From NCBI GenBank assembly GCA_013286765.1, contig JABDFB010000030.1, positions 1-21,153 of the forward strand: a stretch of DNA of 21,153 nucleotides, in the 5' to 3' direction. A program made the translations under genes and the position numbers. The stretch comes from Deltaproteobacteria bacterium (GTDB lineage Bacteria > Bdellovibrionota > UBA1018). This document shows positions 1,945 through 15,404 of this stretch, one piece after another. Positions within the stretch are counted from its first letter, which is position 1; each line of letters starts with the position of its first letter. The notes under the pieces are model-generated. The model did no database searches, was not told where the DNA came from, and saw only the letters and a list, made by a program, of their open reading frames with translations.

Positions 1945-1973
1945 AGTTAAGCAAGATGCTCATGTTGTCTCAA
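1945..1973 (-). promoter_or_regulatory. Candidate sigma70 promoter for the NFACT gene
   Basis: On the minus strand TTGAGA (1973-1968) is followed by a 17-nt spacer and TTAACT (1950-1945), about 30 nt upstream of the NFACT ATG. The -35 is good and the -10 matches consensus at only about half its positions. The site overlaps the first codons of the divergent RlmI-like gene, as expected for a 40-bp divergent gap. It rests on consensus matching alone. Confidence 0.35.
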
Positions 1974-3269
1974 AGAAGTTCTTTTCCCATTTGGCATCTT
2001 CGTAGTGGGTCGGATCGTCGCTTTCGGTCTGGCCATCCCTGGGTCTATTCCAACGAGTTAAGGGAGAGCCCAAAGGGAATTAAGTTAGGGGAGGTTGTTG
2101 AATTAAGAGATGCGGGCGGCGTTTTTCTCGCGCGCGGCATCGGAAATCCCCATTCTCTGATTGCATTTCGAGCTTTGAGCCGAGATTCGAGCGTTTCTCA
2201 GCCGTTGTCAGTGGAAAATGTCGTAGGTGCACTGGTAAAGGCTCTGCGGTTACGCACAAATTTAGGTTTTAGTTCCTATAGCCACCGTCTTTGCTATGGG
2301 GAAGTGGATGGTTTGCCAGGTCTGGTGATCGATCGCTATGTTCTGTGCGGCAGAGCGGGGCAGGTCTTTGTTGTTCAGGCGCATACGGCTGGGATGGATG
2401 TGCTCATGCCGGAAATTGAGCAAATTCTGGAACAATTTGTTCGAAGCAATGAAATTCATAATAATTGGGACCGAACGGGTATTGTCATCAGAAATGATTT
2501 AGGCGTCCGATCGCTAGAGGGACTCGAGTCACAGGAACCCCGGATTTTGAAAGAGATTTCGGGTGTTGATCTGAGGCAGGCGATGATTGAGGTCAGACCT
2601 GTATTAGGAGCTGAGCCGCTGAAATTTCATGTGGATTTGGTCGAAGGACAAAAGACTGGTTTTTTTCTCGATCAATTTGCGAATATTCAGATTGCCGCAT
2701 TGAGATTTAGGGACTTGGTCGGTGCAGGCAGTAAGAAAGTGGTGAGAATCCTGGATTTATGTTGCTACGCCGGGCAGTGGGGGGCGCAGCTGGCACAGGT
2801 TTTTCGGGACCAGGGTGTTCCTATCCAAGTAGTGCTGGCGGATGCGTCCGCCAAAGCACTGGAGCAGGCAAAGAAAAATATCGGGACCGGTGCAACCATT
2901 GAAACGCTTAAAATAGACGTCCTAAAGGACCTGACTGCACTTCCGAGCCAGAGTTTTGATATCGTGATTTCAGACCCTCCTGCACTGATCAAATCACGCA
3001 AGGATATTCCCACAGGAAAACAAGCTTACGTAAAACTGACGACACAAGCTCTGAGGCTGGTCAAACCCGAAGGGGGAGTAGTTATTTGTTCATGTTCTGC
3101 GTTGCTAGACGAAGAAATGTTTTCACAAATACTATGTAAATCCAGTTCTAAGGCAGGAGTTACTACTCAGTGGATCGCTCGAGGGGTGCAATCGCCCGAT
3201 CATCCCATATTGCAGGAATTCCCCGAAGGGAAGTATTTGAAGTGTTGGGTCGGAGTGGTTCGAAAGTAA
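1956..3269 (+). CDS. rlmI: RlmI-type 23S rRNA (cytosine-5) methyltransferase
   Basis: This 437-aa class I SAM-dependent methyltransferase has an N-terminal PUA-like RNA-binding domain (about 12-80, with the family signature SGHPWVYSNEL at 25-35), a central domain with YGEVDGLPGLVID (114-126), and a Rossmann catalytic domain. The SAM-binding motif is DLCCYAGQWG at 267-276, motif IV is DPP at 340-342 and the cysteine motif is CSCS at 378-381, containing the likely nucleophile. The E. coli relative RlmI makes m5C1962 in 23S rRNA. The family motif before the SAM site normally ends FFLDQR; here it is FFLDQF at 236-241. An alternative ATG lies two codons downstream (1962); neither has a strong Shine-Dalgarno. 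It is divergent from the NFACT gene and ends 30 bp from the convergent motor operon, with no clear terminator between. The exact target base is inferred. Confidence 0.85.
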   Translation: MLMLSQRSSFPIWHLRSGSDRRFRSGHPWVYSNELRESPKGIKLGEVVELRDAGGVFLARGIGNPHSLIAFRALSRDSSVSQPLSVENVVGALVKALRLRTNLGFSSYSHRLCYGEVDGLPGLVIDRYVLCGRAGQVFVVQAHTAGMDVLMPEIEQILEQFVRSNEIHNNWDRTGIVIRNDLGVRSLEGLESQEPRILKEISGVDLRQAMIEVRPVLGAEPLKFHVDLVEGQKTGFFLDQFANIQIAALRFRDLVGAGSKKVVRILDLCCYAGQWGAQLAQVFRDQGVPIQVVLADASAKALEQAKKNIGTGATIETLKIDVLKDLTALPSQSFDIVISDPPALIKSRKDIPTGKQAYVKLTTQALRLVKPEGGVVICSCSALLDEEMFSQILCKSSSKAGVTTQWIARGVQSPDHPILQEFPEGKYLKCWVGVVRK

Positions 3270-3299
3270 ACTGTTGTTCGTGCTCTATGCTGTCAAAAA

Positions 3300-3833
3300 T
3301 TAATACCGAGTCGTATGATTAAGTTCTGTTGAATAAGAGAAAGGTTGCATTCCAGGGTGGGGTGCGGTTTTCCATTGTTTCACGATGGCAGAGATACACT
3401 CTTGGGTCTCGGGCAAAATTTCTGGGAAGGTAACGAGGCCCTTATATTCGCCGGTAGGTTGCCACAAGAGTTTCATTTTAATAGTGACGGGTAAATTGCT
3501 CGGTTCGTCGTCGGTGTCGGTTTTAGCTGCAGTTTTGTTAAGACAGGAAGCAATTTGAAAGCCACTCTCGTTGAGATTTTTTTCAATTTGAGAAAAGCTG
3601 TTTTTGCCCGATAATTTCACGTTTTTTTTATCGCTTGGTTTATCTTTTGATTTGTCTTTTGAACCATTAGTTCGTGTTGGGGTTGGAGTAGGCGAGGGAG
3701 CCGGAGTCACAACGGTTGGTGTTGGAGATGGCGATTCAGACGGCTTTGATTTTAGATGATGGAATAATTTACTAGAGGTAAAAAATAAAATTAACACCAC
3801 TATCAATATAAAAATAGTTTGTATAAATTTCAT
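3300..3833 (-). CDS. Membrane-anchored protein with AgmX/PglI- or TonB-like C-terminal domain
   Basis: This 177-aa protein is the last gene of the motor operon. It has one N-terminal membrane segment (about 4-19), a Pro/Ser/Thr-rich linker (31-55) of the kind that spans periplasm, a Lys/Asp/Ser-rich stretch (57-75), and a C-terminal domain (about 80-170) with paired cysteines C97 and C146. That domain follows the shape of the AgmX/PglI C-terminal domain of myxobacterial gliding proteins, itself TonB-like: Cys, then a beta strand of the VTIKMKLLW kind, then a strand after a Gly turn, then Cys followed by V..W. The start has an AGAGGG ribosome-binding site, and the ATG overlaps the upstream TPR gene stop by 4 nt. 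In such systems these domains link inner-membrane motors to outer-membrane partners. Domain assignment is by eye and moderate. Confidence 0.6.
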   Translation of the reverse strand: MKFIQTIFILIVVLILFFTSSKLFHHLKSKPSESPSPTPTVVTPAPSPTPTPTRTNGSKDKSKDKPSDKKNVKLSGKNSFSQIEKNLNESGFQIASCLNKTAAKTDTDDEPSNLPVTIKMKLLWQPTGEYKGLVTFPEILPETQECISAIVKQWKTAPHPGMQPFSYSTELNHTTRY

Positions 3834-5434
3834 GGAGCCCGACCCTCTTTAAGTAGTTTATTGGCAGCTCGATCAAATGATTCTCTAAAAACGGTGGGGA
3901 TCTTGATTTTAGCTGTGAGAGCCGGAAGGGAAAGAACCAAAGGTAGTCTCAGAGGGTTGATGCTTGCATGAGCGTCCTCTTCAAGCAAATTTTCAGTTTT
4001 ATTTATTTTGTTTATTTGATTGATAAAGTTCTGTTGATAAAGATCTACATCGTTCGCATTTTTGAAGTAGAGTTTCGCCAGATCCAACTTCTGAGTTTTT
4101 GGAATAACAAGAAAAGGAGACTGAACTGCAGTCGCAAACTGCTTATAGGAAACGAGTGGGTTCTCCTGGGAGAGTCGAGCTAGGAGCAGCGTCAATCTTC
4201 TTGCTTCTTTCCAGTTGTTTTGTTTCAGCACTGATTGAAGCAGGAGTCGGAGTAACTTAGCGCCGATTCGGATGCTCCTTTGGTCTTTTGTTTTATTATT
4301 GGATAGAAGTAGTTTATTCCAGAATGGATCTAGTCCGGACGGACACCCTTCAGTCAGTGCAACTGCTTTGGAAACCGCCATACTCGAAGAATGACTCGAC
4401 GAAAATACCTTCTCGAACAGTTTAAGAGCATGATCGGCTTTGATCGAAGACAAATGATCACAAAGCATGGTTTGAAGTTGGCGTTTTAAGATCGGATCGA
4501 GCTGAGCGTTCGAATTTGCTTCTGTCTCTGTGTCAGTTTGCAGCAAATCGTGGCTGATTCTCAAAATGGAATCGTCGTTAACATTTCCTGCTAATCCTCT
4601 AGCCATTGCTATGCGATAGTTCAACGCTGCCGTTTCGAAGGTAGAAGAGAGGTGGGGGAGTGCTTTTTGGTATTCCTGCAAGGCTTCTTTTGGTTTTCGT
4701 GTTTGAAAATATAAGTCGCCCAGACTGACGAGAGCTAATCCCTTCAAAAGGGCACGCAATTTATTGCATTTTTTTAATAGAGATTCAAAACTAACAGGGT
4801 CTTTTGTCGGTTGAGAGAGGTATTGCAGGGCGGTCCATTCACATTTCTCGACCAAACTGCCGCGAAGATTGGCCACGAAGGAACTTGGAATGGGTAAAGG
4901 TCTACTAGACACAACTCGGTAGGTTACAAAATCTTTGAGGGTGCTCGAGATATCTGTCGGTAACGTGAAATCACCTCTTAATGTCGGCTCTAGCAACGCA
5001 TCGATCACCTCTTGTGGAGTTTGATCGTAGTTCAAGCTTTGTTTCGTATCGGAATGGGTAACGCAAAAGTTCTGACTGGTAGACTCAGTTTCGTCTGCCC
5101 AGATTTCCCCAGAAGCCTTCCAGGCCAACTGTTTATCGGGATCAAAATTCTTTGATTGTTCACTATCCTGAAATCCGAACGGAGGTCTTTCTATTTCTAA
5201 CCAAGCCAATCTGAATAGGGCGCCCAAATCCGGACGGACTCGATCTAGTCGGGTGCTCCAGTAGCGTGCTCGAGACCAATCACAAGCTTTCAGTGCAGAC
5301 AAGCTGCCACGAACCACTGTGTGGGAGAATGTATGTTTCACAGTGTGGGGGGGTGTGTGCTCACCGGCAGTCGCGGGTGGGAGAACATAAAGCAGAATAG
5401 CAAAGACTGCGGTGAGACCCTTTAGAATAGACAT
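3830..5434 (-). CDS. Secreted TPR-repeat protein of the motor operon
   Basis: This 534-aa protein has a clear signal peptide (MSILKGLTAVFAILLYVLPP, cleavage near ATAG-EH at about 23-25), which places it in the periplasm or attached to the outer membrane. The best tetratricopeptide unit lies about residues 230-262 (LGDLYFQTRKPKEALQEYQKALPHL), followed by further helical pairs; much of the rest is alpha-helical and Leu-rich. I do not recognise a catalytic motif. It overlaps the upstream barrel gene by 13 bp and the downstream TonB/AgmX-like gene by 4 bp, so translational coupling is likely. By analogy with periplasmic TPR proteins of gliding and secretion machines (for example GltC or pilotin-like scaffolds) it may be an assembly scaffold; that is inference. 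The ribosome-binding site is weak. Confidence 0.75.
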   Translation of the reverse strand: MSILKGLTAVFAILLYVLPPATAGEHTPPHTVKHTFSHTVVRGSLSALKACDWSRARYWSTRLDRVRPDLGALFRLAWLEIERPPFGFQDSEQSKNFDPDKQLAWKASGEIWADETESTSQNFCVTHSDTKQSLNYDQTPQEVIDALLEPTLRGDFTLPTDISSTLKDFVTYRVVSSRPLPIPSSFVANLRGSLVEKCEWTALQYLSQPTKDPVSFESLLKKCNKLRALLKGLALVSLGDLYFQTRKPKEALQEYQKALPHLSSTFETAALNYRIAMARGLAGNVNDDSILRISHDLLQTDTETEANSNAQLDPILKRQLQTMLCDHLSSIKADHALKLFEKVFSSSHSSSMAVSKAVALTEGCPSGLDPFWNKLLLSNNKTKDQRSIRIGAKLLRLLLQSVLKQNNWKEARRLTLLLARLSQENPLVSYKQFATAVQSPFLVIPKTQKLDLAKLYFKNANDVDLYQQNFINQINKINKTENLLEEDAHASINPLRLPLVLSLPALTAKIKIPTVFRESFDRAANKLLKEGRAP

Positions 5435-6084
5435 GTGAGACCTAGTTGAAAGTTGCTTTCCAGAACAATAACTTTGGTGGTTCTTTGTTCGGGATATACT
5501 CGAAATCTAAATTCAGGGGTCAAAGCGATGGTACGCGAAAATAGATAATGGTTCATCCCTAAGCCGATTTCACCAAAGAGTTGGTAAGAATTCGAGAAAC
5601 GAACCCCGGGACCAAATAGTCCGTAAAGATCAAAATGAACGATAGATCTAGAATTCCAAGCATACTTTCCGTATACGGGAGTGTACACATAGGAAGTAGA
5701 AGCTTGAAAATGGGAAAGCTTTACGTCAGTTGAATAGCCTGTTTTAGCTTGAATGCTTCCTAAGAGACTTCCAGTGTCCGTATTGGTATAGGTAACACGG
5801 AGGAACTCCCAACCATGTTTTTCAGAAAAATGATATCTACCGCCAAAAGAGATAGCATAGGTGGTATAAAAATCTTTTCTTTCTTGAATACCTAAAGAGG
5901 GCCCCATGAATTGGAATTTTCCCTTTTTGATGATCTGTCTGTCCTGGACCACGGCGGATTCTTCTGGGACGCGGCCGTCCTGATTTAACCACTTATCCCA
6001 CGCAGTGGTTTCTGCTCTTGCTAGAGAGCTGGAACAGAAAACAAACAGGAAAAAAGAAAATAATCTAATTGCTATAGAATTCAT
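5422..6084 (-). CDS. Outer-membrane beta-barrel protein of the motor operon
   Basis: This 220-aa protein has a signal peptide (MNSIAIRLFSFFLFVFCSSS, cleavage near LARA-ET at about 24) and then, from about residue 50, alternating hydrophobic strands with aromatic girdles (for example YAISFGGRYHF, FQASTSYVYTPVYG, VHFDLYGLFGPGVRF, LFGEIGLGMNHYLF). It ends in a strand with terminal Phe (FQLGLTCLF), typical of BAM-inserted barrels. It resembles the small outer-membrane beta-barrel proteins seen in deltaproteobacterial gliding and adhesion clusters. It overlaps the VWA-like lipoprotein gene by 20 bp upstream and the TPR gene by 13 bp downstream. It likely anchors the machine to the outer membrane; that role is inferred from context. 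Confidence 0.75.
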   Translation of the reverse strand: MNSIAIRLFSFFLFVFCSSSLARAETTAWDKWLNQDGRVPEESAVVQDRQIIKKGKFQFMGPSLGIQERKDFYTTYAISFGGRYHFSEKHGWEFLRVTYTNTDTGSLLGSIQAKTGYSTDVKLSHFQASTSYVYTPVYGKYAWNSRSIVHFDLYGLFGPGVRFSNSYQLFGEIGLGMNHYLFSRTIALTPEFRFRVYPEQRTTKVIVLESNFQLGLTCLF

Positions 6085-7255
6085 AAATAACTCGAATTTG
6101 GTCTCCGATTACCGGTTCTTGTCCAGGTGGCATGTTTATGATGATTTCGGGTGGATGGGGACTAACGTGAAAATGATTAACATCGATCTTTTGGCCATTG
6201 ATCTGCACTCGTATAGTATTTTCGATGGGTTGTCGTTTTAAGACCATCTTCCAGTTTAGTTGGTTGATGTCGTTGGCTAAATTGACAAAATCTTTGCCCG
6301 ATCGATAATTATGAAGCAAAGTAGGAGAAGTTTTCATGAATGCACTCGCTAACCGATCATGGTTCTCCTGAAGAGGCCTCGCCGGGTCTCTAGCCAGCAT
6401 CATATGAATCCACGTTCGATTCGCTTGGAATGGAGGTTCGCCAACAGCTCTTCTCCATTCGTCTGCACGCTTTGATGTTTCCTCAGCCTCTTGATTCCGA
6501 GTGCTTTCAGATCGGAAATAGATGATATGTAGGTTGTATGGTTTGTCGTACGCCTCAATAAAACGATAATTTAATATATTAAATTTAAGTGTTGTAAGCA
6601 TATCGAGCATTGTACTCAACGGTGTTGAAGGGAGGCTGTTTTGTTGTTTTATTGAAAGATTATAGTAGGAACGCTCTAGAAATGATCTAACGTCATTAGC
6701 AGTAACAAATTTGTCAGTGTTGAGAAAATGCCGACTATCGCCATTGAGTGGTTGGGAATTCTTTGCAGCATATAGATGAATTCCTTTGTACTCATTTTCT
6801 GTTCCAAAAAGTGCTTCAGTAAATTGCTGGGCATAGGACTTGGAAGAATAGTCATAGGGATCAGGGACGATCAGATTTCTAAATACATTATCCAGAATAT
6901 AACTTTCTGGGTGAAAGAGGAAGACGATAGCCAGATTTCCGCGAGGTATCTGAAAAGAAAATTCCTCTGTGTACTCAAATCTGTGCCGAGATGGTGGCGG
7001 TGGTGGCGGCGGGGAAAAGGTTGACGGTGGTGAAGGAGTGACAATGCCGTTTATTGGTATAACAGTGCTACTATCTGGTTCCGCCGGTTGCAACTCAGAG
7101 GTTGGTTCAATCGTTGTATCGGGTTTTTGTGGCGGAACCCACTGCACGTCGTTGCAGCCGATCAAAAAAGTTGTTTGGCAAATCATCCAAAAAACGATTG
7201 CGGGTAGGAACGACCGCAAAGTGATGTTCGATGAACTTTGGGTAGTATGTTTCAT
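6065..7255 (-). CDS. Lipoprotein with degenerate VWA-like domain (no MIDAS)
   Basis: This 396-aa protein has a lipoprotein signal with lipobox LIGC (Cys34), a Pro-rich tether (about 40-89, with seven consecutive Pro at 82-88), and a globular domain from about 93. It appears to be a paralogue of the adjacent upstream gene. The first strand reads GNLAIVFLFHPESY, where the neighbour has GDVGFLWIVDNSES; HPESY (115-119) replaces the metal-binding DNSES. The later strand YNLHIIYF parallels the neighbour's RLFLFIIH. The C-termini share a beta-rich tail of the form L..P......V.I......P...I...P...G..I.V.Y. The MIDAS metal site is therefore absent. The start has a CAGGAG ribosome-binding site and overlaps the VWA gene by 4 bp. 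Function is unknown; a structural partner of the active VWA protein is plausible. Confidence 0.7.
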   Translation of the reverse strand: MKHTTQSSSNITLRSFLPAIVFWMICQTTFLIGCNDVQWVPPQKPDTTIEPTSELQPAEPDSSTVIPINGIVTPSPPSTFSPPPPPPPSRHRFEYTEEFSFQIPRGNLAIVFLFHPESYILDNVFRNLIVPDPYDYSSKSYAQQFTEALFGTENEYKGIHLYAAKNSQPLNGDSRHFLNTDKFVTANDVRSFLERSYYNLSIKQQNSLPSTPLSTMLDMLTTLKFNILNYRFIEAYDKPYNLHIIYFRSESTRNQEAEETSKRADEWRRAVGEPPFQANRTWIHMMLARDPARPLQENHDRLASAFMKTSPTLLHNYRSGKDFVNLANDINQLNWKMVLKRQPIENTIRVQINGQKIDVNHFHVSPHPPEIIINMPPGQEPVIGDQIRVIYEFYSN

Positions 7256-8376
7256 TTCACTACTCCTGGTGGAATAGTTCCAGGTAGGTTTCCGAGGAGG
7301 TTTGTCAGATCAGTATTTGTACCGGGAGCGGGTGTTGCTTCGGCCGGGTTAGTGGTCGGGTTAGTGATATAGCTAACGTTGATTAGACTGCCTTCGGGTA
7401 TCGGAGGTGCATTTAGTATTTTGACTTCATTGGTCAATGGATCAAATGTAAAATCGGTGCCGTATCCCAAAGTCCTAGAATCAGCGATCTGAAATGTCAT
7501 GCCTTGTGGCTGAAAGGGAACTTCAGATAGAATATATTTATTTTTGAAGGCAACCACTTCATAAATAAGAGTATTGGTTAAATTTTCAAAATCGGGGCTC
7601 AAGATATCAAATTCGCGAATCCGCTTGTCTTTCTCTGGGATAGGGAACTTACTGCGTAACTCATTTATGAAATCGGCTGCAGCTTTGGTTCTGGTTCCGG
7701 TTAGTACTCTATTTTTATTATGTATTATAAATAGAAATAAGCGATGGTATCCGGCAAGTTTGCCAAATTGCTCGATGTAAGTGGACGTATTATTCTCTTT
7801 TTCAGGTTCATCTCCTAATAGAAAAATAATAAATAATGGTCGTTGGGGCTGTCCCAGAAATGCTTTGCTTTGGAAGGCAGCTAATGCGGATGCGTAAGGC
7901 GTAGGCTTGGTGTACAACAATTCCCCATTTAGAATGGGACTTGGTCCGAAAAGCTCAGCCATATGACCGGCATAATCTTCCTCCGATGCAAAATTCGCTG
8001 GAACAACAGGTTGTGGTGTTGTGACCACTTGACTGCGATAGCGGAGCAGAGCTGCATCCGGACGCTGAGGGGTAGTGCTCGTTGGATTAGAGGGGCCCGG
8101 CATAGCTTCAATAAAAGCTTCGTATTGCGTTTTAAAAATAGTTAGTTCATCGCGGACAGACTCACTGTTATCGACTATCCAGAGAAACCCAACATCCCCG
8201 TGCGCTTTGCCAGCAATAAAATGATCAACCTTAGAAGACTGCTTTGGAGCGACAATCCATTTTTCCGTCTCCTTCACTCTTTCTTTCATGTGGATTGTTT
8301 GACTGGGGCGACAGCTCACTTGTGGCAAAAGGGTCAGTAAACTGAACAGTGTCAATAGGGTAGTGGCGTTTCTCAT
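7252..8376 (-). CDS. VWA-domain protein with MIDAS motif
   Basis: This 374-aa exported protein starts with a hydrophobic signal ending PQVSC (Cys22). The -3 Gln makes the lipobox atypical, so lipidation is possible but not sure. A von Willebrand factor A domain spans about 58-260: the first strand runs into the MIDAS motif DNSES at 69-73, and a later strand carries FLLGDEPE (185-192), the usual bacterial VWA pattern supplying a further metal-site Asp. The C-terminal beta-rich tail (about 270-340) is shared with the downstream paralogue, and it ends in a Pro/Thr/Gly-rich segment. MIDAS domains bind divalent metal and usually mediate protein contacts or adhesion. The ribosome-binding site is good (AGAGGAA). 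The ATG overlaps the FliF/FliG-like gene stop by 4 bp. A surface or periplasmic contact role in this machine is inferred. Confidence 0.8.
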   Translation of the reverse strand: MRNATTLLTLFSLLTLLPQVSCRPSQTIHMKERVKETEKWIVAPKQSSKVDHFIAGKAHGDVGFLWIVDNSESVRDELTIFKTQYEAFIEAMPGPSNPTSTTPQRPDAALLRYRSQVVTTPQPVVPANFASEEDYAGHMAELFGPSPILNGELLYTKPTPYASALAAFQSKAFLGQPQRPLFIIFLLGDEPEKENNTSTYIEQFGKLAGYHRLFLFIIHNKNRVLTGTRTKAAADFINELRSKFPIPEKDKRIREFDILSPDFENLTNTLIYEVVAFKNKYILSEVPFQPQGMTFQIADSRTLGYGTDFTFDPLTNEVKILNAPPIPEGSLINVSYITNPTTNPAEATPAPGTNTDLTNLLGNLPGTIPPGVVK

Positions 8377-9977
8377 TTTTGTAATTCCTCTAATTCTAAG
8401 GATCGATATGCCTTAATAAAGTCTGCACGGGCCTTGATTTTGGTAGCTTCTGTTAATTTAAGTTCCAAAGATAATAGTCTCTTTTGCAACGTACCAGGAA
8501 GTTGAGAAAGAAGTTTTTTGGACAGATCCTGAGAAAGCTGAGAGAGCAGTGCTTTCAACGAAACGAGTTCCATTTTGGTGCAAATCTCTACAAGCGCTTC
8601 TGCCTGTGTTTCGCTGACGAGCTTATCTACAGAGAAAATACTGTCTAACTTTAGTTCACTAGCTAGAGTGTGGCCTTCGCTGTCGGATAAGAAGACAGGA
8701 TACATGTCGATAGGGTTCTCGTCCGCTGACGCACGATTCTGCCAAAGAGCCTCAATGGTGGCTCCTAGCTCAGTGTCCATTTTGTGGCGATTTTCAATTA
8801 TTTCATTTTGATAATTGTAGAGTGCAATTCCTAATTGAATTTTTTCTTCGGACCCAAGCTGGCTCATTAAGAGCGGCCACTTATCCTGTTCGATATTGCA
8901 CAAACATGCAGCTTTTTGCTGAAGTGACTTGAGACTCGAAAATAGCTTTGAAAGCTGGCCATCTTGAAGACGAGAGAGCTTCATCAGCGGAAGCTCTAAT
9001 TCTGCAACTCTTCTCCAATGAGCTTGATCGAGCTGAGTCTTCAACCATTTTAAGGAGAGTTTTTCACCTTCTGTTGTAGAAGCAAGCGAAAGTGCTGTCA
9101 GACTCTTTAATCCCACCGGAGAGAGTTGAAGGCTTTGGGATAGTTTCTTAGGTTCAAAAATGCTAGTTATTTTTCTTAGATTGGTAAAGTCCTGGTCGAG
9201 GGCTAACTTCTCCACTAACCATTTAAGATCATCGCGGTAAGTTTTTAATAGGTATTCTTGTTCCGGGTTTTCGTTAACAGGAAAGATTTTTGAAAATTCC
9301 GTTTCTTCGCTGGTTTTTCCGGAGGTTTCATTTGCTTTGCCGATCCCCTCTTTTATTCGTCGGAAAAGTTCTGCTCTTTCTCTTAGATGCTTAATTCGGC
9401 CACGAGTAACTAAAACGAGCCCAAGGATCAGTCCAATAAGAACCAGTAAACCTAGAGTTACTAAGCAAACTGGCCAAATGAGATCTTTGATTTCTACCAG
9501 GGGTCGATCACCTTCTTCAGTTTTCTTCAGATTGGGGGAAATACCGCCGATCTTTTTTAGTTGTACTGTTAGTGGAACTGGGCAATCGTTTGCCAGTTGA
9601 TATAACATAATTTGCTGTAGAGATTTTCGATCACCTTCACTTAGTTTATTGTTAACAAGAACTGTTAATAGTACGGATTTTAATTCCGGAGTAGATGTGC
9701 TCTGCTTCGAACGAGTAAAGCCTAAGTTATCCAAAACTCGATTAGAAACAGTTTTAATTTGTGGATCGATCCTAAATCCGGGGCAGTCTTGACCACAATG
9801 CATCTCTAAAAGTGCTGAAACAATGGGAGAGAGCTTTTCACGAATCGCCATACCAGCGTCTTTAGTTGAAAGCTCAGGAGTTTTTTCTGTTACCGAATCC
9901 GGCGTTTCAGCTGAAAGCACAGGCGTACCGGCAGTTATTATCATGAGCGCTAAAATGGAACCAAAAACCTTCTTCAT
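8373..9977 (-). CDS. Single-pass membrane protein resembling a reduced FliF-FliG fusion
   Basis: This 534-aa protein has a signal peptide (1-23, LSA-ET), a periplasmic domain (24-165), one strong membrane segment (about 166-190) with basic residues after it, and a cytoplasmic, helical C-terminal half (about 195-534). In the periplasmic part, SVLLTVLVNNKLSEGDRKSL (101-120) resembles the ring-building strand/helix of FliF just before its second membrane helix. The last ~100 residues align by eye with the FliG C-terminal torque domain: F..D.LV, then a helix LVEICTKM, then L..LL..L....S.KLL..LP...Q..LL...L. The match is to hydrophobic spacing; the classical torque-helix arginine is not evident. 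It follows the MotB-like gene by 23 bp, with an AAGGAA ribosome-binding site. If correct, it provides the rotor or docking partner for the stator genes beside it. An unrelated helical protein remains possible. Confidence 0.6.
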   Translation of the reverse strand: MKKVFGSILALMIITAGTPVLSAETPDSVTEKTPELSTKDAGMAIREKLSPIVSALLEMHCGQDCPGFRIDPQIKTVSNRVLDNLGFTRSKQSTSTPELKSVLLTVLVNNKLSEGDRKSLQQIMLYQLANDCPVPLTVQLKKIGGISPNLKKTEEGDRPLVEIKDLIWPVCLVTLGLLVLIGLILGLVLVTRGRIKHLRERAELFRRIKEGIGKANETSGKTSEETEFSKIFPVNENPEQEYLLKTYRDDLKWLVEKLALDQDFTNLRKITSIFEPKKLSQSLQLSPVGLKSLTALSLASTTEGEKLSLKWLKTQLDQAHWRRVAELELPLMKLSRLQDGQLSKLFSSLKSLQQKAACLCNIEQDKWPLLMSQLGSEEKIQLGIALYNYQNEIIENRHKMDTELGATIEALWQNRASADENPIDMYPVFLSDSEGHTLASELKLDSIFSVDKLVSETQAEALVEICTKMELVSLKALLSQLSQDLSKKLLSQLPGTLQKRLLSLELKLTEATKIKARADFIKAYRSLELEELQK

Positions 9978-10000
9978 AAATATTCCTTCAAAATCAGCAA

Positions 10001-10615
10001 CTAAAAAATCAGCAAATTCACCCGTCTATTTTTAGAAAAATCTTCCTGAGTGGCTAGGGGCCTTGTGTCGGAAAAACCGTGCACCATCATTTGCCTCTCA
10101 TTCACTCCGTTCTCCTTTAGAAAATGCAGAACTTCTACGGCTCTCATTGCCGAGAGGGCCCAATTACTTGAAAATTGTTTATTGTGGATCGGGATATGAT
10201 CTGTGTGACCTTCTATTGCCAGTTGAAAACTCTTTTCAATTTTCGCCAAAATGATGGCAAATTCCTTTAAAGTTTTCACGCCATTGAGAGAGACAGCAGC
10301 TTCACCAGAGCTAAATAAAACGTTTTCGTCAAACTGGACGGAAAGCCCTTGATCCGTCAGTTCCGTTTTAACTTTTCCGTCTAAATTCTGTTCTTTGATG
10401 GATTGATCCAGCTGAGCCTTAACGTCTTGTAAAGCGCTATGTGTTTTCTTATTAAACGTCTGCTTCAACATGTCCAATCGAGAGCGACTCACTGTGGAAA
10501 TGGAGAGCATCAGACAAAAGAAGACAAAAAGTAGAGTGATCAGGTCGGCGTAGCTCACCAACCAGTTTTCTGAATCTCCATCTTCAAGTTCTCGTCTATG
10601 CGGAAAAGACATCAT
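10001..10615 (-). CDS. MotB-type stator subunit with OmpA peptidoglycan-binding domain
   Basis: This 204-aa protein has a short cytoplasmic N-terminus, then WLVSYADLITLLFVFF (18-33), the MotB signature in which Asp24 is the ion-carrying residue, in a single membrane segment (about 20-40). A helical periplasmic linker (45-85) follows, then an OmpA/MotB peptidoglycan-binding domain (about 87-204) with IEGHTDHIPI, SSNWALSAMRA, HGFSDTRPLA and the terminal NRRVNLLIF. The OmpA domain separates it from ExbD, TolR and AglQ/AglS, which lack it. The protein is shorter than flagellar MotB (about 260-300 aa), mainly through a short C-terminus. Two ATGs occur in tandem; an AGGAG ribosome-binding site lies 8-11 nt upstream. 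It overlaps the MotA-type gene by 4 bp, typical of stator pairs. Confidence 0.9.
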   Translation of the reverse strand: MMSFPHRRELEDGDSENWLVSYADLITLLFVFFCLMLSISTVSRSRLDMLKQTFNKKTHSALQDVKAQLDQSIKEQNLDGKVKTELTDQGLSVQFDENVLFSSGEAAVSLNGVKTLKEFAIILAKIEKSFQLAIEGHTDHIPIHNKQFSSNWALSAMRAVEVLHFLKENGVNERQMMVHGFSDTRPLATQEDFSKNRRVNLLIF

Positions 10616-11427
10616 GGTTGCGCACTCCTAGATGGATGGGAAGTAGCGATTGTCTTTTTTTCCGATTTATTCAATTCAAAACAGAATGAGCGAAGTTCTT
10701 GATTTAGAAGTGTCGGATCGGCTTGTTTTGCGACCGAAACAAACCAGTGTGCAATCATCTGATTTCTTTTCAATGCTTGGTCCCGAATGTCAGAGACAAA
10801 CTTTTGCATCGGAGCAAAAATTAAAGTAAAGCCGATCACACCGAAGAGGGTCCCTTGCATGGCTAGGCCCATGCTCTTGCTGATTTGATTCATATCGGAA
10901 ATATTTTGCAGCAAGCTAGTCATACCTAAAACGGTGGCTAGCATTCCGAAATAAGGAGCCATTTTTGCGAAAAAGTGAAAAGCTTTTGATAGGGAATCCC
11001 ATTGCTCGTCTTCAGCGTAGATCTTTCTCTGTAGTAGTCTTTCGACTTCCTCAGTCTGGTACTTTGCGGAGAAGAGTTCACCCGCATAGCGAATAGTGAA
11101 ATCAGGGTGAGCTTCGGAAAATTTTACCATCTGTGAAAAACCAAATTGTCCTCGTACTTGAAAGGACATATTTTCGAGGTCGTCAAGAATTTTTGAATTG
11201 GGTGATTTTTGCATTTCGAAAAAACGATTGAACATGCTTCTAAAATTCAACGATGCTTTTCCAAATAGAACCCAAACCAACACGGGTGCTAAAATGACGA
11301 AGACCGCGGCCTTAACGTCTAAGCCAGTCTCTGACGATAGTTTTGATTCCGATGCAATTAAGACAATACATAAGACCAGTACAAAGAGCGCAACCAGTCG
11401 TATGGTTGTCTTATAGATAAAGTTCAT
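10612..11427 (-). CDS. MotA/TolQ/ExbB-type stator subunit (MotA-like)
   Basis: This 271-aa inner-membrane protein has four predicted membrane segments: about 9-26, 39-55, 150-173 and 188-207. A cytoplasmic loop of roughly 95 residues lies between TM2 and TM3. TM3 begins with the family signature MAPYFGMLATVLGM (156-169), including the conserved Pro158. TM4 carries MQGTLFGVIGF and is followed by FAPMQK, as in MotA. With the MotB-like gene next to it, it should form an ion-conducting stator (five MotA to two MotB in known structures). The loop and short C-terminal tail (about 210-271) are MotA-sized, unlike the long tail of ZorA. It has the strongest ribosome-binding site of the operon (TAGGAGAG, 6-7 nt from the ATG), which suggests high expression. 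Its start overlaps the TPR lipoprotein stop. Confidence 0.9.
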   Translation of the reverse strand: MNFIYKTTIRLVALFVLVLCIVLIASESKLSSETGLDVKAAVFVILAPVLVWVLFGKASLNFRSMFNRFFEMQKSPNSKILDDLENMSFQVRGQFGFSQMVKFSEAHPDFTIRYAGELFSAKYQTEEVERLLQRKIYAEDEQWDSLSKAFHFFAKMAPYFGMLATVLGMTSLLQNISDMNQISKSMGLAMQGTLFGVIGFTLIFAPMQKFVSDIRDQALKRNQMIAHWFVSVAKQADPTLLNQELRSFCFELNKSEKKTIATSHPSRSAQP

Positions 11428-12029
11428 AAATTCTCTCCTAAATCATTTTCAATTGCCAAAATCGCTTCCTCGAGATCTGCGTTGGATTTATCCAGTTTTT
11501 GTGCTCGTTTGAACGACCCAAGGGCCAACTTTTTTTCTCCAATTTTGCGATAAAGTGTGCCTTGCATGATGAAAAGTTTTGCCTGCTTTGGGTACTGTTC
11601 GACTAGTGGAGCAAGCCGGATCAGCGCTTCAGAATATTTTTCTTTAGTATAGAGATCTTCGACTTCGGCTGTACCATTTAGATAGGAGAGGCTAAGGGGG
11701 CCCTTCTGATCGGAGCTTTTCACTTTTCCTTCACTGATGATTCTATCTGCGAAGGTGACTGCCAGATCCTTGTCGTTGGGATCTTTTTTTTGCATGTTTT
11801 CAACAACCAGTGTTTCAGGCGAGTGGTGCAATGGAATTGTTAAGCTCTCTTTTTTACCCGTTTGAACATCTTCGACTTGAAAATTTATGTTTCGTGCTAA
11901 GTCCTTTTCGCTCGCACTATAGGGCGGCGTAATCCACATACGGGTTTTTTTGCCGGAACAACTGACTATAAAAACCATTGTAATAGTCGCGGTTATCGAA
12001 ATTAAATATCTAAAAATCTTCTTATCCAT
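11424..12029 (-). CDS. TPR lipoprotein of the motor operon
   Basis: The frame can start at GTG (12041) or at ATG (12029). I prefer 12029 because an AGGTGA ribosome-binding site sits 8 nt upstream of it and would lie inside the longer reading. The 201-aa product has a lipoprotein signal with lipobox IVSC (Cys24 from this start), a beta-rich middle region, and two TPR-like units near the C-terminus (LYTKEKYSEALIRLAPLVEQ; LYRKIGEKKLALGSFKRAQK). It is expected in the periplasm, anchored to a membrane by lipid. It overlaps the MotA-like gene by 4 bp and follows the FlgO-like gene by about 20 bp. Small TPR lipoproteins serve as pilotins or scaffolds for outer-membrane rings and barrels; that role here is inferred from its position between the FlgO-like protein and the stator. 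Confidence 0.8.
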   Translation of the reverse strand: MDKKIFRYLISITATITMVFIVSCSGKKTRMWITPPYSASEKDLARNINFQVEDVQTGKKESLTIPLHHSPETLVVENMQKKDPNDKDLAVTFADRIISEGKVKSSDQKGPLSLSYLNGTAEVEDLYTKEKYSEALIRLAPLVEQYPKQAKLFIMQGTLYRKIGEKKLALGSFKRAQKLDKSNADLEEAILAIENDLGENL

Positions 12030-12037
12030 AATCTCAT

Positions 12038-12043
12038 TCACCT
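12038..12043 (-). promoter_or_regulatory. Ribosome-binding site deciding the TPR lipoprotein start
   Basis: AGGTGA on the minus strand lies 8 nt upstream of the ATG at 12029. It overlaps the alternative GTG at 12041, which itself has only a weaker purine stretch ahead of it. This favours the shorter protein. Confidence 0.6.
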
Positions 12044-12048
12044 GCCCA

Positions 12049-13257
12049 TTACCATGTCATCGAAAGTCTGAATAAAAGCCCCAGCCCACCAAAGGTTCCA
12101 GCTTTATCTGATCCTTCAGAAGCAACCTCACCATTATTTATTTCTTTGAGAATTTCGTCCGATAAAACCGATGTCTTAAATATATAAATCGGCATAAGAC
12201 TGAACGAAAAACGCCTAATCATTTGGAATTCTGGTCCCATTCCAATATAGGGTGTAACAAATCCGAGGCCAAGCAGTGCTCCGGCTTCAGTTGCGAGCGC
12301 AAATCGCATTGTGGATATATTGTATGGATTGAATATGTAAGTGAACTTGGGTCCGAGTTTCGCAGCAAAACCAATTGGTTTGCCTATGTTCTTCTTTTTA
12401 AGGTCGTCCTCATCAATGCCAACGTTAAACATTATTCCTGCGACGAATCCAAATAGCTTTCTTCCTCGATCGAATCGCTCTCCGATAAATAAATCAAGCG
12501 CGGGCATCATGAAACGATTGGAGCCACCACCGATATCGAGACCAGGCATGGAATTAAGTCCAAAGCTCGTGCTGAGTGCAAAAGCGGTTTCCCCTAAAAT
12601 GACATGCGATAGTGAATCTCTATGGCCGAGTTCGTAGGGGTCCTGTTCGTTCAGATTTTCGCGATCTCGCACTACCTGGGCCATGGAATATTGCTGACTC
12701 CAAAGGACATGGTCTGTCGAAGCTCTTACGAGGCGAATATTCAGAATTAAATCTTCCGGAGTGTAATTGAGATCCGCGTAGATCACATGATCTGTCCCAG
12801 CCTCAGAGCTAATACGTTTCGCCCGGCCTGTATCCGACGAATAGTTTTCAAAACGCAGCTGCCCATTGCCGGATTTAGTAAGCCTTGCCTCATCGCAATT
12901 AAGGCACTGTTTGACTTGGAGTTTATTTGAAAATAGGAGCGTCCGCTCTAATTTCTGACGGAAGTTGCGCTGATAGTGAGGCGGAAGATTCTCGTTAATT
13001 CTAACTTCATAAACTAATAGACTTGTTGTGTAGTGCTCGATCTTTGGTAAGTCTTTCTGCAAGATGGAGAGTAATTCGTCTTCCACCTTTTCGTAGGGCA
13101 CTTTAAGCCATTCAACATCTTTATTTTGTGGGGGCGTTTGTAAAGAGGCCTGCGCCGATGAATCATTTGCTAGGGTAGCTGACGGAGAGATCTGGAGGGA
13201 TAGAAAAAGAGATAGCGCGAGGACTAAAAAATGAATACGCATAATTCCAAATACCAT
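12049..13257 (-). CDS. Outer-membrane protein: FlgO/CsgG-like domain plus barrel-like C-terminus
   Basis: This 402-aa exported protein is the first gene of the motor operon. The signal peptide is best read from the internal Met6 (13242; MRIHFLVLALSLFLSLQISP, cleavage after ATLA at about 30), so 13242 may be the true start; neither start has a strong ribosome-binding site. Residues about 45-200 form a periplasmic alpha/beta domain like FlgO, CsgG or TolB N-terminal domains: TTSLLVYEVRIN, a helix and strand with LQVKQCLNC, then HVIYADLNYTPEDLILNIRL and DHVLWSQQYS (the A.V.G.L...RLVDA.TG.VVWS pattern). Residues about 218-402 are Gly- and aromatic-rich alternating strands consistent with an outer-membrane barrel, ending SMTW. 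FlgO belongs to the outer-membrane ring of sheathed flagella, so this fits an outer-membrane collar for the stator complex. The fold calls are inference. Confidence 0.65.
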   Translation of the reverse strand: MVFGIMRIHFLVLALSLFLSLQISPSATLANDSSAQASLQTPPQNKDVEWLKVPYEKVEDELLSILQKDLPKIEHYTTSLLVYEVRINENLPPHYQRNFRQKLERTLLFSNKLQVKQCLNCDEARLTKSGNGQLRFENYSSDTGRAKRISSEAGTDHVIYADLNYTPEDLILNIRLVRASTDHVLWSQQYSMAQVVRDRENLNEQDPYELGHRDSLSHVILGETAFALSTSFGLNSMPGLDIGGGSNRFMMPALDLFIGERFDRGRKLFGFVAGIMFNVGIDEDDLKKKNIGKPIGFAAKLGPKFTYIFNPYNISTMRFALATEAGALLGLGFVTPYIGMGPEFQMIRRFSFSLMPIYIFKTSVLSDEILKEINNGEVASEGSDKAGTFGGLGLLFRLSMTW

Positions 13258-13342
13258 AAATAAATACTTTCAAATTTTATAGAATTAGACGGAAACAGAG
13301 GCAATCAGAAATTCGTAATTCAAATTGTTTTGTCTGAATTCG

Positions 13343-13350
13343 TTGCGCAA
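13343..13350. promoter_or_regulatory. 8-bp palindrome at the motor operon start point
   Basis: TTGCGCAA is a perfect 8-bp palindrome that overlaps the 3' end of the -10 element and reaches the expected transcription start. It sits inside a wider CGTTG...CAACG inverted repeat (13342-13359 region). Its position would suit a repressor operator. Short palindromes also arise by chance. Confidence 0.35.
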
Positions 13351-13377
13351 TTTACAACGAATGGAGTTGAAAGTCAA
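13349..13377 (-). promoter_or_regulatory. Sigma70-like promoter of the ten-gene motor operon
   Basis: On the minus strand TTGACT (13377-13372) is followed by exactly 17 nt and then TAAATT (13354-13349). This is a near-consensus housekeeping promoter. The start point would be near 13342, leaving a leader of about 85-100 nt before the FlgO-like gene. No comparable promoter stands out between the ten genes, which mostly overlap, so one transcript for 13257-3300 is the simplest reading. Confidence 0.7.
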
Positions 13378-13506
13378 TACATACATTGAAAATATTTAAT
13401 AAATATAAACTTATGTAGTAGATAATTGAATTGGTTTAGCAGATATTTAATGTGCGAAACTGCTTTTCAGGGAAGGGGTCTAGTGCTCTGAATGGCTCGC
13501 TTAATA

Positions 13507-13527
13507 CCCACTACGCTGCCGTAGGGG
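13507..13527 (+). promoter_or_regulatory. Stable hairpin in the rlmL leader
   Basis: CCC-A-CTACG / CTGC loop / CGTAG-GGG forms an eight-pair stem with one bulged A, 58 nt before the rlmL ATG. No T-run follows, so it is not an obvious intrinsic terminator of plus-strand transcription. It could affect rlmL translation or mRNA stability. Confidence 0.4.
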
Positions 13528-13584
13528 CCACTTCTCGAATTAACCCTCCCCAATGGGCCTAAAAATCTGGTACAACCCCCCAGC

Positions 13585-14766
13585 ATGTCATTCCAAAAGG
13601 ATATTTATGACTATTTCGCTACGGCAGCCTTGGGGATTGAGCAAATCCTTGCTCAAGAACTGGCGGCCCTGGGGGCGCAGGAAATCCAAGTCAGTAAAGC
13701 GGGGGTCCGCTTCCGTGGCCCTTTGGAGCTAGGTTATAAAGCTTGCCTCTGGCTGCGAACGGCAAATCGAGTCTTGTTGGTACTTAGCCGATTTCCGGCG
13801 CCAGATTCTGACAGCCTCTACCGTGGGGTTCGAAAAATTCACTGGACGGATCATCTCACTTATAAAGATACGTTGGCGGTAGACTTTTCTGCTTCGTCGT
13901 CTGACATTGCCACCAGGGGAGTACATACGCATTTTGCGGCATTAAAGGTCAAAGATGCAATAGTAGATCAATTTAGGGTAGTAACGGGAGACCGTCCTTC
14001 CATCGACACGGCGACGCCAGACGTCCGAATTAATGTTTATCTAACCAATGGCGAAGCAACCGTCTGCATCGATTTATCCGGCGATAGTCTCCATTTGAGG
14101 GGGTATCGAAGGGAAGGAAGTGCGGCGCCACTCAAGGAAAACCTGGCGGCAGCCCTCCTCCTCCAGGCAGGATGGAACACCGATAGCGTTCGCGAACAGC
14201 CAGATCGAGCATTTTTGGATCCGATGTGTGGGTCGGCGACGCTGCTTATTGAAGCAGCGCTTATTGCTGCAAATGCAGCGCCCGGTCTAATGCGGCGCTA
14301 TTATGGATTTTTAGGTTGGCAGGGGCACGTCCCCAAACTTTGGCAAAGGATCAAGGAAGAAGCACAATCGCAGCATGTCACTAACGCTAAAAAAATCCCA
14401 CGCATTGTTGGCTATGATAGCGATGCCCGAGCAATTCGGATTGCGATTGCCAATATTGAGAGGGCGGGTTTCACCGGGATAGTCCACGTCGAAAAATGCG
14501 ATTTGAAAATGGCCGAGCTGACTTCTAAAAAAGGGCTCTTAGTGGTGAATCCCCCTTATGGAGAAAGACTAGGCGAGATTGAGACGCTCAAACCGTTGTA
14601 CAAAGACCTGGGCGATGTTTTTAAACAGCGGTTTAAGGGGTGGGAAGCTTATGTTTTTACCGGAAGTCGTGAGTTAGCAAAGTCCGTAGGGCTCAAAACG
14701 ACCCAAAAGACAGTATTCTATAACGGACCGATCGAGTGTCGCCTTCTGAAGTACGAGATCTTTTAA
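13585..14766 (+). CDS. rlmL: RlmL-type 23S rRNA (guanine-N2) methyltransferase with THUMP domain
   Basis: This 393-aa protein matches the RlmL family throughout. It starts with DYFATAALGIEQILAQEL (9-26), has a THUMP RNA-binding domain (about 45-165), the linker HLRGYRREGSAAPLKENLAA (170-189), and a Rossmann methyltransferase domain with DPMCGSATLLIEAAL (212-226) and the catalytic NPPYGERLG (322-330) typical of N2-guanine methyltransferases. In E. coli the same domain is the N-terminal half of RlmKL and makes m2G2445 in 23S rRNA; here the RlmK half is absent, as in many bacteria. The ATG is the only plausible start before an upstream in-frame stop, yet it has no clear Shine-Dalgarno. The 3' end overlaps the next gene if that gene uses its GTG start. 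Confidence 0.9.
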   Translation: MSFQKDIYDYFATAALGIEQILAQELAALGAQEIQVSKAGVRFRGPLELGYKACLWLRTANRVLLVLSRFPAPDSDSLYRGVRKIHWTDHLTYKDTLAVDFSASSSDIATRGVHTHFAALKVKDAIVDQFRVVTGDRPSIDTATPDVRINVYLTNGEATVCIDLSGDSLHLRGYRREGSAAPLKENLAAALLLQAGWNTDSVREQPDRAFLDPMCGSATLLIEAALIAANAAPGLMRRYYGFLGWQGHVPKLWQRIKEEAQSQHVTNAKKIPRIVGYDSDARAIRIAIANIERAGFTGIVHVEKCDLKMAELTSKKGLLVVNPPYGERLGEIETLKPLYKDLGDVFKQRFKGWEAYVFTGSRELAKSVGLKTTQKTVFYNGPIECRLLKYEIF

Positions 14767-15401
14767 AACCTTACCCTTTGACCCAGCAAGAAATTTTGAT
14801 AGACCTAATTGCTATGGAAAAGCAAGAAAACAGCGGAGCAGAAAATCCTGGGGAGCTTTTGCGAGACTCCGATGCGCAAACGAACGAGACCCTCAGCCAA
14901 ATTATTGATTATGAACGGGTCTTATCCAATCGAATATCGGGGGTTAAGACGGTTTTAGTTGTTATATCAGCAAGAGGAATGGCTTTCGATCGAGAAGCCC
15001 TGAGGACAAAAATCGCGGTGGCCTATCCCGACGCAAAGGTCTTCTTCAAAACCACTCAAAATGCTTCCTTGGGCGAGGAGATCCCCGCTAAGGTAGATTT
15101 ACTGATTGATTTTACCGGCCCGGGGGAGAGGCAGAGCTGGTGCTTCGCAAAGAAATTACGTAAAATGGCTCGCGTAGTGGTGGGACGAAACGCTGGCTGG
15201 TTTAGGCGCAAAATCTATGATCGCGTTTTTGATGAATCCGCATCGCCTGAGCCTTTATCGGAAGAAATATTGGAAAGAGAAAGAGCAGTACAGAAGCACG
15301 TCCTGGCCATGGCGGGTATTCCGCTTTTCCAGATGAGCAATACTCCCCCGGATCTCGGAAAGACTATCGCTTTGGAATTACCCGGCATGCGAAAGTTGTA
15401 A
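14736..15401 (+). CDS. Conserved-looking protein of unknown function
   Basis: I do not recognise this 221-aa cytoplasmic protein. From the GTG at 14736 it overlaps rlmL by 31 bp; an ATG at 14814 would give a 195-aa product without overlap, and neither start has a strong ribosome-binding site. A strand-rich segment VKTVLVVISARGMAF (about 70-84), then YPDAKVFFK and VDLLIDFTGP, followed by a basic region (KKLRKMARVVVGRNAGWFRR), suggests a Rossmann-like fold. The spacing weakly recalls the N-terminal half of family 9 glycosyltransferases, but half the enzyme would be missing. The C-terminus is acidic then Leu-rich (EEILERERAVQKHVLAMAGI). It sits between rlmL and resB, 3 bp from the latter, so co-expression is likely. 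Confidence 0.7.
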   Translation: MSPSEVRDLLKPYPLTQQEILIDLIAMEKQENSGAENPGELLRDSDAQTNETLSQIIDYERVLSNRISGVKTVLVVISARGMAFDREALRTKIAVAYPDAKVFFKTTQNASLGEEIPAKVDLLIDFTGPGERQSWCFAKKLRKMARVVVGRNAGWFRRKIYDRVFDESASPEPLSEEILERERAVQKHVLAMAGIPLFQMSNTPPDLGKTIALELPGMRKL

Positions 15402-15404
15402 ACT

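Follow-up and report, generated by a model that had tools for sequence, protein, structure and literature searches.

A MotAB operon with a putative membrane-anchored FliG suggests an ion-driven motor distinct from the flagellum in Bdellovibrionota

The window analyzed here, a 21,153-nucleotide stretch of DNA from a member of the Bdellovibrionota, carries genes for a flagellar-type stator beside genes for envelope and surface proteins, which raises the question of what such a stator would drive.

A conserved operon containing a MotAB stator

Ten genes on the minus strand (G1 to G10, 3300..13377) form an operon. A sequence-only reading of this DNA had described them as such, and the operon proved real: all ten homologues occur in identical order in L002 and L003, and a third genome contains six of them before its contig ends. 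The same reading had placed the genes behind one strong promoter, a claim that did not hold, as the promoter scan of the operon returned chance-level matches only. The terminator scan likewise remained at chance level, and the Rfam scan was without a match. A Pfam scan of 18 window ORFs detected no genes for export, rod, hook, or filament proteins or for FliM/FliN. A search of viral contigs for relatives returned nothing, and a search of plasmids returned just two matches, both to distant MotA.

Judged by sequence, G3 and G4 are clear MotA and MotB stator proteins, as had been proposed. G3 (10612..11427, minus strand; 271 aa) matched PF01618 (1.4e-14) and its counterparts in L001-L003 (39-41%), and in the PDB it matched MotA (1.5e-13) and PomA (6.9e-13), with the alignment to MotA over residues 35-249 covering a MotA/ExbB channel and a MotA-type cytoplasmic domain. 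G4 (10001..10615, minus strand; 204 aa) combines a TM/plug segment with an OmpA_C peptidoglycan-binding domain (PF13677, 1.5e-14; PF00691, 4.2e-13) and matched MotB in the PDB at 4.8e-32 and its relatives at 46-55%. The predicted ion-carrying residue, Asp24 (codon at 10544..10546, minus strand), is invariant in 4/4 sequences and presumably corresponds to Asp32 of E. coli.

G5, a predicted membrane-anchored FliG

G5 (8373..9977, minus strand; 534 aa) appears to join a signal peptide, a periplasmic domain, a TM helix, and a cytoplasmic FliG-fold region in one chain and is best interpreted, from its modeled fold and its relatives, as a FliG anchored in the membrane. The periplasmic domain (residues 34-146; 9540..9878, minus strand) has a predicted alpha-beta-beta-alpha-beta, ferredoxin-like topology compatible with RBM3 of FliF; a single TM helix was placed by eye at about residues 168-192; and the FliG-fold region comprises residues 264-532 (8382..9188, minus strand). 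In a fold comparison that rests on a predicted model of modest confidence, the top 11 Foldseek matches were five chains bearing the name FliG plus six from C-rings, which we take to be FliG as well, and 85 residues of the C-terminal domain superposed on FliG with a deviation of 1.8 A.

The window protein itself, evidently too far diverged in sequence, did not reach the gathering score of Pfam FliG_C, FliG_M, or FliG_N. Direct hhalign comparisons of G5 with FliG and FliF were not significant, nor were those with the controls FliI, FliH, G1, G9, and MotA, and protein database searches with G5, by sequence and by alignment, recovered G5 alone from the 7995 candidates sharing most words that were scored each time. 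Three weak matches to the G5 profile within the phylum were by eye MgtE-like transporters and so were not counted as relatives of the operon. The L042 counterpart, which lies beside MotAB and is matched by the window-type G5 profile at 5.6e-5, exceeded the gathering scores of FliG_C (3.6e-10), FliG_M (1.7e-7), and FliG_N (1.7e-7). Of the FliF- and FliG-like halves originally read into the 534-aa protein, the FliG half is upheld by its fold and by relatives over the Pfam cut-offs, and the resemblance to FliF is at most one of fold. The earlier description of MotAB accompanied by a FliG-like single-pass protein without adjoining rod, hook, or filament genes therefore withstood the two findings named in advance as refuting it, a lack of FliG resemblance and a gene order conserved in no relative.

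Membrane-FliG genes with their own stators in other Bdellovibrionota

Related arrangements occur elsewhere in the Bdellovibrionota. In family F, FliG_C and FliG_M were matched by 15/15 members (with a score over gathering documented for one of them), and hhalign against flagellar FliG gave an E value of 6.8e-14 over 239 columns; 40 of 49 matches were so assigned, several of them split in two pieces. A third type was counted in 26 genomes by E value and length; in a tally of 100 genomes it is pooled with flagellar FliG and with family F. Among 20 neighborhoods of G1 homologues, 17 contained a whole membrane-FliG gene together with MotA and 15 contained MotB as well; the neighborhood samples (three sets of 20 regions and one of 17) were chosen by hand, as were the genomes sampled for FlhA (49), MotA (14), and FliP plus FliG_M (10).

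In a MotA tree that excluded ORFs shorter than 230 aa, the MotAs linked to family F formed one clade and those linked to the third type another, each with a support of 100. The label "window-type" in this tree covers the window, L001-L003, L042, and nine metagenome MotAs (P0003-P0011) included by similarity alone, and two assignments were made by hand (L135 was placed with the third type, the second pair of L106 under "other"). The pairing of membrane-FliG with its own MotAB is well supported and is seen in no fewer than three lineages of MotA within the phylum. We assume that genome G136 is Bdellovibrio bacteriovorus HD100 and that its membrane-FliG-associated pair is MotAB2.

Envelope and surface proteins of the operon

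The remaining genes encode predicted exported or envelope proteins. G1 (12049..13257, minus strand; 402 aa; 39-43% to L001-L003) is an outer-membrane candidate with, by eye, a signal peptide and a C-terminal barrel-like part, the latter following an N-domain with invariant C118 and C121. Homologues of G1 occur in 42/357 genomes, and a few members of the family had weak OMP_b-brl matches. It had been likened to FlgO/CsgG, a resemblance that the profiles do not bear out: FlgO (PF17680) matched 1/21 homologues, at 14.8 bits against a cut-off of 22.6 (E=0.026), and comparison of G1 with solved structures gave nothing significant, the best being LpoB at 0.37. G8 (5422..6084, minus strand; 220 aa; 38-40%) is predicted to be an outer-membrane beta-barrel, in agreement with the initial description, and scored 60.9 bits (1.4e-16) against TIGR04565 (OMP_myx_plus; cut-off, 60).

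G2 (11424..12041, minus strand; 205 aa; 40-47%) is lipoprotein-like, with an invariant C28 and a TPR-like C terminus (TPR match weak, below gathering), and G9 (3830..5434, minus strand; 534 aa; 26-28%), exported as judged by eye, matched TPR_2 at 2.5e-4, also below gathering. G6 (7252..8376, minus strand; 374 aa) is probably a VWA/MIDAS lipoprotein. It has an invariant lipoprotein-type C22 and a VWA domain, proposed at first reading and upheld by fold, set in a small beta domain formed by the N and C termini in a layout like that of MIDAS adhesins, and it carries a canonical DxSxS MIDAS motif (D69-N-S-E-S73; 8158..8172, minus strand) that is absent from the L001-L003 counterparts. The G6 sequence had no significant match among solved structures; its profile matched two L042 proteins, one of which scored 2.2e-10 with a model of the MIDAS adhesins of Bdellovibrio, short of the cut-off. 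G7 (6065..7255, minus strand; 396 aa; 22-23% to L002/L003) is a second lipoprotein-like protein (LIGC) that aligns with the G6 family and has a G6-like layout without the MIDAS motif.

G10 (3300..3833, minus strand; 177 aa; 20-29%) has an N-terminal TM segment, a Pro/Thr-rich linker, and a small C-domain with invariant C97, C146, and W154, and by position it resembles a TonB/GltG tail. The TonB/AgmX likeness suggested earlier is found in one relative, the syntenic L042 counterpart (GltG, 5.3e-6; AgmX/PglI tail, 9.9e-6; both below cut-offs), and the window G10 itself had no GltG or AgmX/PglI match.

Such a complement of proteins would also suit an energized outer-membrane machine of the Tol-Pal/TonB kind, in which motion of the FliG-like protein and the TonB-like G10, imparted by MotAB, would energize transport, secretion, or remodeling of the envelope without locomotion. 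The tail of the L042 G10 counterpart, the G8 barrel with G1 as a second barrel candidate, the TPR-like proteins, and a peptidoglycan-anchored MotB are all compatible with this explanation, but the PDB matches of the motor protein were to MotA and PomA, and the TolQ model TIGR02796 matched it at 1.4e-5, far below its cut-off. VWA lipoproteins are not known to be usual in such systems, which also counts against it, and on balance the explanation appears unlikely.

Relationship to the flagellum

A flagellar gene set is present in G001-G003, and FlhA was detected in 44/49 genomes tested, among them all three that carry an operon of the window type. As most tested carriers have flagellar genes, the operon therefore looks like an extra motor. 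The products could, less probably still, serve the flagellar motor itself, either by scaffolding its stators or as an additional FliG ring around the basal body, with periplasmic or outer-membrane disks formed by G1 and the TPR proteins. The co-occurrence with FlhA fits this possibility, as does the flagellar-motor-like character of MotAB, the FliG fold, and the TPR proteins, and PMC12827227, citing Morehouse 2011, attributes flagellar motility to the three MotAB pairs of B. bacteriovorus. The operon, however, contains VWA lipoproteins and no flagellar structural genes; G001 and G003 have one gene each for FlhA and FliP together with several for membrane-FliG; and seven genomes (G003, G133, G171, G245, G323, G338, and G339) have a FliG-size match without family F. 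In G296 the extended set is present and FlhA, FliP, and flagellar FliG were not found in its available sequence, but G346 and G126, in which FlhA and FliP were both missed although flagellar FliG is present, demonstrate that these genes can escape detection.

The torque-generating charges differ among the types. R281, D288, and D289 of FliG are kept in 0/4 window-type proteins, compared with all three in 13/13 flagellar FliG sequences; family F has acids at the D288 and D289 sites in 14/15 and an acidic residue at the R281 site in 15/15, and in the third type position 289 is acidic in 20/20 and 281 basic in 18/20. Of the MotA charges that contact FliG in E. coli, R90 and E98, the window MotA has a basic residue aligned near the R90 site and appears to have lost the E98-type motif, by a mapping that combines the alignment with PomA numbering. 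The acidic R281 site of family F and the missing E98-type motif together suggest that one salt bridge has been lost on both sides, which would speak for the motor favored below. Loss of the FliG charges, and MgtE_N matches over gathering that surpass any FliG model in the window-type orthologues L001 (5e-7) and L003 (1.5e-7), might suggest an MgtE_N-type sensory or regulatory domain gating the MotAB channel without rotation, but this is very improbable, as FliG ranked first and the MgtE cytoplasmic domain 35th (E 0.5) in the PDB fold comparison, relatives exceed the three FliG thresholds, and flagellar FliG itself scores MgtE_N over the cut-off, so that the MgtE_N match is no argument against FliG.

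Proposed machine and its significance

The explanation that we favor, and hold to be somewhat probable, is an ion-driven motor that is built from flagellar components yet distinct from the flagellum, in which a membrane-FliG ring, driven by MotAB, sets outer-membrane components and adhesive surface proteins in motion. The stator would consist of MotA and MotB, with the OmpA domain of MotB attaching it, by homology, to peptidoglycan. G5 may assemble into an inner-membrane ring that MotA would turn or push as it does FliG, and the periplasmic face of this ring could hand motion to the TPR and TonB-like proteins G2, G9, and G10 and through them to the outer-membrane parts G1 and G8 and the MIDAS/VWA lipoproteins G6 and G7. 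Movement of surface adhesins of the catch-bond type might then allow cells to glide, to keep a grip under load on surfaces or other cells, or to do both. More tentatively, and with considerable doubt, these pairs of membrane-FliG and MotAB, which span no fewer than three lineages of MotA, number as many as several in one genome, and would take in the cluster around MotAB2 of HD100, may constitute a phylum-wide class of nonflagellar rotary motors that is the missing motor for gliding or for traction on prey and surfaces, the window type being equipped with its own MIDAS adhesins.

We know of no setting other than the flagellum in which MotAB drives FliG. If a phylum of predators pairs a membrane-fixed FliG with its own stator, the torque generator of the flagellum would have found a second use as an independent engine, which may bear on crawling or gripping by these bacteria. 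If G136 is HD100, a genetically tractable strain has this class, which opens it to direct testing, and MotAB2, until now interpreted as flagellar, may have to be reassigned.

Comparison with known systems

The proposed machine shares with the flagellar motor a MotA/MotB stator, the FliG fold of G5, and, possibly, an RBM-compatible periplasmic domain with a TM segment as in FliF. It differs in that G5 is a single chain holding both the periplasmic and the FliG-like part and in that the operon supplies envelope and VWA proteins in place of FliM/FliN and of export, rod, hook, and filament genes. A one-chain combination of ring protein and FliG exists in the Vibrio FliF-FliG fusion, which was engineered in the laboratory from flagellar proteins (PMC11481574; PDB 8z4d); the family F profile matched this fusion at 5.2e-6, but the match is confined to the FliG part. 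The Zorya ZorAB anti-phage motor was considered, as the window MotB matches ZorB models (1.8e-21), and was rejected because no ZorA, ZorC, ZorD, or ZorE model matched among the ten proteins.

The Agl-Glt gliding machine of Myxococcus combines an ion-driven motor with a VWA surface protein, the adhesin CglB (PMC13104615), and the operon resembles it in having both, in the GltG-type tail of the L042 G10 counterpart, and in a G8 barrel family named after myxobacteria. The window motor consists of MotAB with a FliG fold rather than AglRQS, and none of the ten window proteins matched an NCBIfam Glt or Cgl model at E<=1 (for MotB, among 25 of its 40 matches). The Bdellovibrio MIDAS-family adhesins Bd0875 and Bd1483 are described in PMC11003981 as having a lipobox and a VWA domain inserted in a beta-rich domain of N- and C-terminal segments. 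G6 shares the lipobox and this layout, and its L042 relative fits the corresponding model where the window G6 has no match; what sets G6 apart from these adhesins is that it is tied to a motor operon.

Conservation of the operon and its stator genes

The ten minus-strand open reading frames (G1 to G10 in transcription order) occupy 13257 to 3300 of the window. They are flanked on the plus strand by genes for an RNA methyltransferase-like protein (1956-3269) and an RlmL-like protein (13585-14766). As the sequence-only reading had it, these genes mostly overlap: seven of the nine junctions do so, and the remaining two are gaps of 7 and 23 bases. It is because of this tight packing that G1 to G10 likely form one transcription unit, and not because of the strong promoter claimed for them, which scores as a 9-of-12 match; 17 such sites were found in 3100-13584, against 18.0 expected from shuffling, so that their frequency is at chance level.

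Beyond the operon, a 221-aa open reading frame lacking a Pfam match (14736-15401) lies between the RlmL-like gene and tandem ResB-like and CcsA-like genes (15405-18887; PF05140 and PF01578), an ordinary cytochrome c maturation pair. A 640-aa biotin-carboxylase-like protein is encoded at 18799-20721, its ATP-grasp and C-terminal domains scoring over the cut-off and its N-terminal domain below it.

The stator pair recognized from the sequence held up. MotA (G3) matched PF01618 at 1.4e-14, along with solved MotA and PomA structures, and MotB (G4) matched both the MotB plug family and the OmpA family as well as solved structures of MotB; Asp24, at the ion-carrying aspartate position, was invariant in the window and three related loci (4/4). 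These relatives, reached via the MotA alignment, were the sole confirmed cases among 41 pattern matches and come from two Oligoflexia metagenome-assembled genomes (L001 and L002) and one bacterial one (L003). Gene order proved to be conserved: L002 and L003 contain homologs of all ten genes in unchanged order, and L001 contains the first six before its contig ends. Identity to the window proteins ranged from 20 to 29% for G10, the lowest, to 46 to 55% for MotB, the highest. The window-type G5, the 534-aa membrane-anchored FliG candidate, occurred in 3 of 368 phylum genomes; given this count and the order shared by L002 and L003, the operon is rare in the searched genome collection yet kept as a unit. 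Three more weak G5 matches in the phylum resemble MgtE transporters and were set aside.

Membrane-anchored FliG proteins beside MotAB

A search with G1, the outer-membrane candidate, matched 42 of 357 phylum genomes. In the 20 neighborhoods fetched, four of which are cut short by contig ends (L041, L045, L049, and L052), G1 was accompanied by G2 in 19, MotA in 17, MotB in 15, and a whole membrane-FliG candidate in 17; the common membrane-FliG, termed family F, is represented in L041 and L045 by pieces at their truncated ends, and L056 contains the G1-like gene alone. Family F proteins, counted in 40/357 genomes, are about 780 aa long and comprise a signal peptide, a pair of periplasmic segments, a transmembrane helix, and a C terminus matching Pfam FliG_C and FliG_M in 15/15 (best, 6.7e-16 and 7.1e-10). 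They aligned with flagellar FliG over 239 columns (hhalign Prob 98.1, E 6.8e-14), matched solved FliG structures at 4.5e-12, and retrieved flagellar FliG of the same phylum at E values of 5e-7 to 5e-14. The flagellar FliG loci fetched had a FliF-, FliH-, or FliI-like neighbor in 13 of 14 cases, with none in the 9 kb read around L103 (G171).

The closest bridge to the window is L042 (genome G296), where G6- and G7-like genes are followed by G1, G2, MotA, MotB, and a 545-aa G5 counterpart that matches FliG_C (3.6e-10), FliG_M (1.7e-7), and FliG_N (1.7e-7), all over gathering, as well as the window-type G5 profile (5.6e-5). The opposite strand carries, in divergent orientation, another G6-like gene, a barrel resembling G8, an exported protein of 356 aa for which no family match was found, and a GltG-tail-like gene.

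A third type of membrane-FliG, represented by a 576-aa protein with MotAB nearby in L104, was counted in 26/357 genomes; among 20 regions fetched, 17 contained a MotA, which in 15 of them lay no more than 9 kb from the third-type protein. The single-contig genome G136, which we take to be Bdellovibrio bacteriovorus HD100, encodes a 577-aa example (FliG_C, 4.6e-10; FliG_M, 1.4e-7; FliG_N, 2.1e-5) at 2.91-2.92 Mb, which would then be near Bd3020/Bd3021. These two genes have been described as MotB2/MotA2 (PMC11323537).

In the MotA tree of 69 sequences, the 19 family F-linked and the 17 third-type-linked MotAs each formed one clade with support of 100. The 13 labeled window-type, nine of them by similarity alone, had support of 71, within a group of 16 (support 100) that includes the MotAs of L042, L057, and L153. 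These three also have membrane-FliG neighbors, assigned by Pfam in L042 and L057 and by layout plus a FliG_M match over the cut-off in L153.

Several neighboring genes were also observed. Relatives of a roughly 170-aa cyclic-nucleotide-binding protein of L043 (CRP model, 2.5e-12) lie between membrane-FliG and MotA in 11 of the 20 G1 neighborhoods (L043:4356-4868, L047:13763-14278, and others), and a zinc-ribbon-like protein often follows MotB, hinting at control by a second messenger. In L106 (G319; 4582-16205), the family F cluster adjoins a second MotAB pair with a 578-aa protein that has a similar layout but matched no FliG model. L153, from the same genome as L003 (G003), is a second five-gene set (G1-like, G2-like, 586-aa membrane-FliG, MotA, and a MotB running incomplete into the contig end). 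In G136, the third-type gene is adjoined by a convergent gene for a 583-aa membrane protein (L130:7672-9423), possibly a sensor, which neighbors in L104 and L135 resemble.

Torque surface

In Escherichia coli, the contact pairs are MotA R90 with FliG D288-D289 and MotA E98 with FliG R281 (PMC12505986). Flagellar FliG of the phylum kept all three charges (13/13). In family F, the D288 and D289 sites were both acidic in 14/15 and the R281 site was acidic in 15/15. The E98-type -LALE-like motif was kept in only four of the 69 aligned MotAs, all labeled "other." Family F thus appears to retain one salt bridge and to have lost the other on both partners, as expected for a genuine MotA-FliG contact. 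The third type had an acidic D289 site in 20/20, an acidic D288 site in 0/20, and a basic R281 site in 18/20. By column alignment, on which all site mapping rests and which is weakest for the window type, window-type proteins kept none of the R281, D288, and D289 charges (0/4), nor did the L042 counterpart. Window-type G5 would have to contact MotA in a different manner, if at all; this apparent loss and the lack of direct sequence significance for G5 count against the motor reading.

Relation to the flagellum

Of 49 genomes selected, 44 have FlhA, among them G001, G002, and G003; of the 40 that have family F, 38 do. The membrane-FliG/MotAB sets would therefore mostly be additional motors in bacteria that also carry flagellar genes. 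The two family F genomes lacking a FlhA match, G345 and G346, both have flagellar FliG, and of the pair only G345 has FliP. FlhA and FliP can be absent from genomes with flagellar FliG (G346 and G126); in G296, an assembly that may be incomplete, FlhA, FliP, and flagellar FliG were not found. G001 and G003 each have a single FlhA and a single FliP, with three FliG_M loci in G001 and four in G003, one of these being the window-type protein, below the cut-off.

Proposed role and known systems

Among the open-licence PMC literature matches listed, we recognized no description of a nonflagellar FliG with MotAB; a paper noting multiple motA copies in an Oligoflexia genome discusses MotA as flagellar (PMC8067016). 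In the conserved set, a MotAB stator is encoded together with a FliG-fold protein anchored in the membrane; this pairing recurs in several forms across the phylum, and in the window it is linked to VWA, barrel, TPR-like, and small transmembrane proteins. The FliG-fold protein may form a ring that MotAB would move, with the motion carried to the cell surface; force-bearing adhesion or gliding would be our first guess at its function. We know of no machine such as these parts would form. Each of the core parts itself belongs to a known family.
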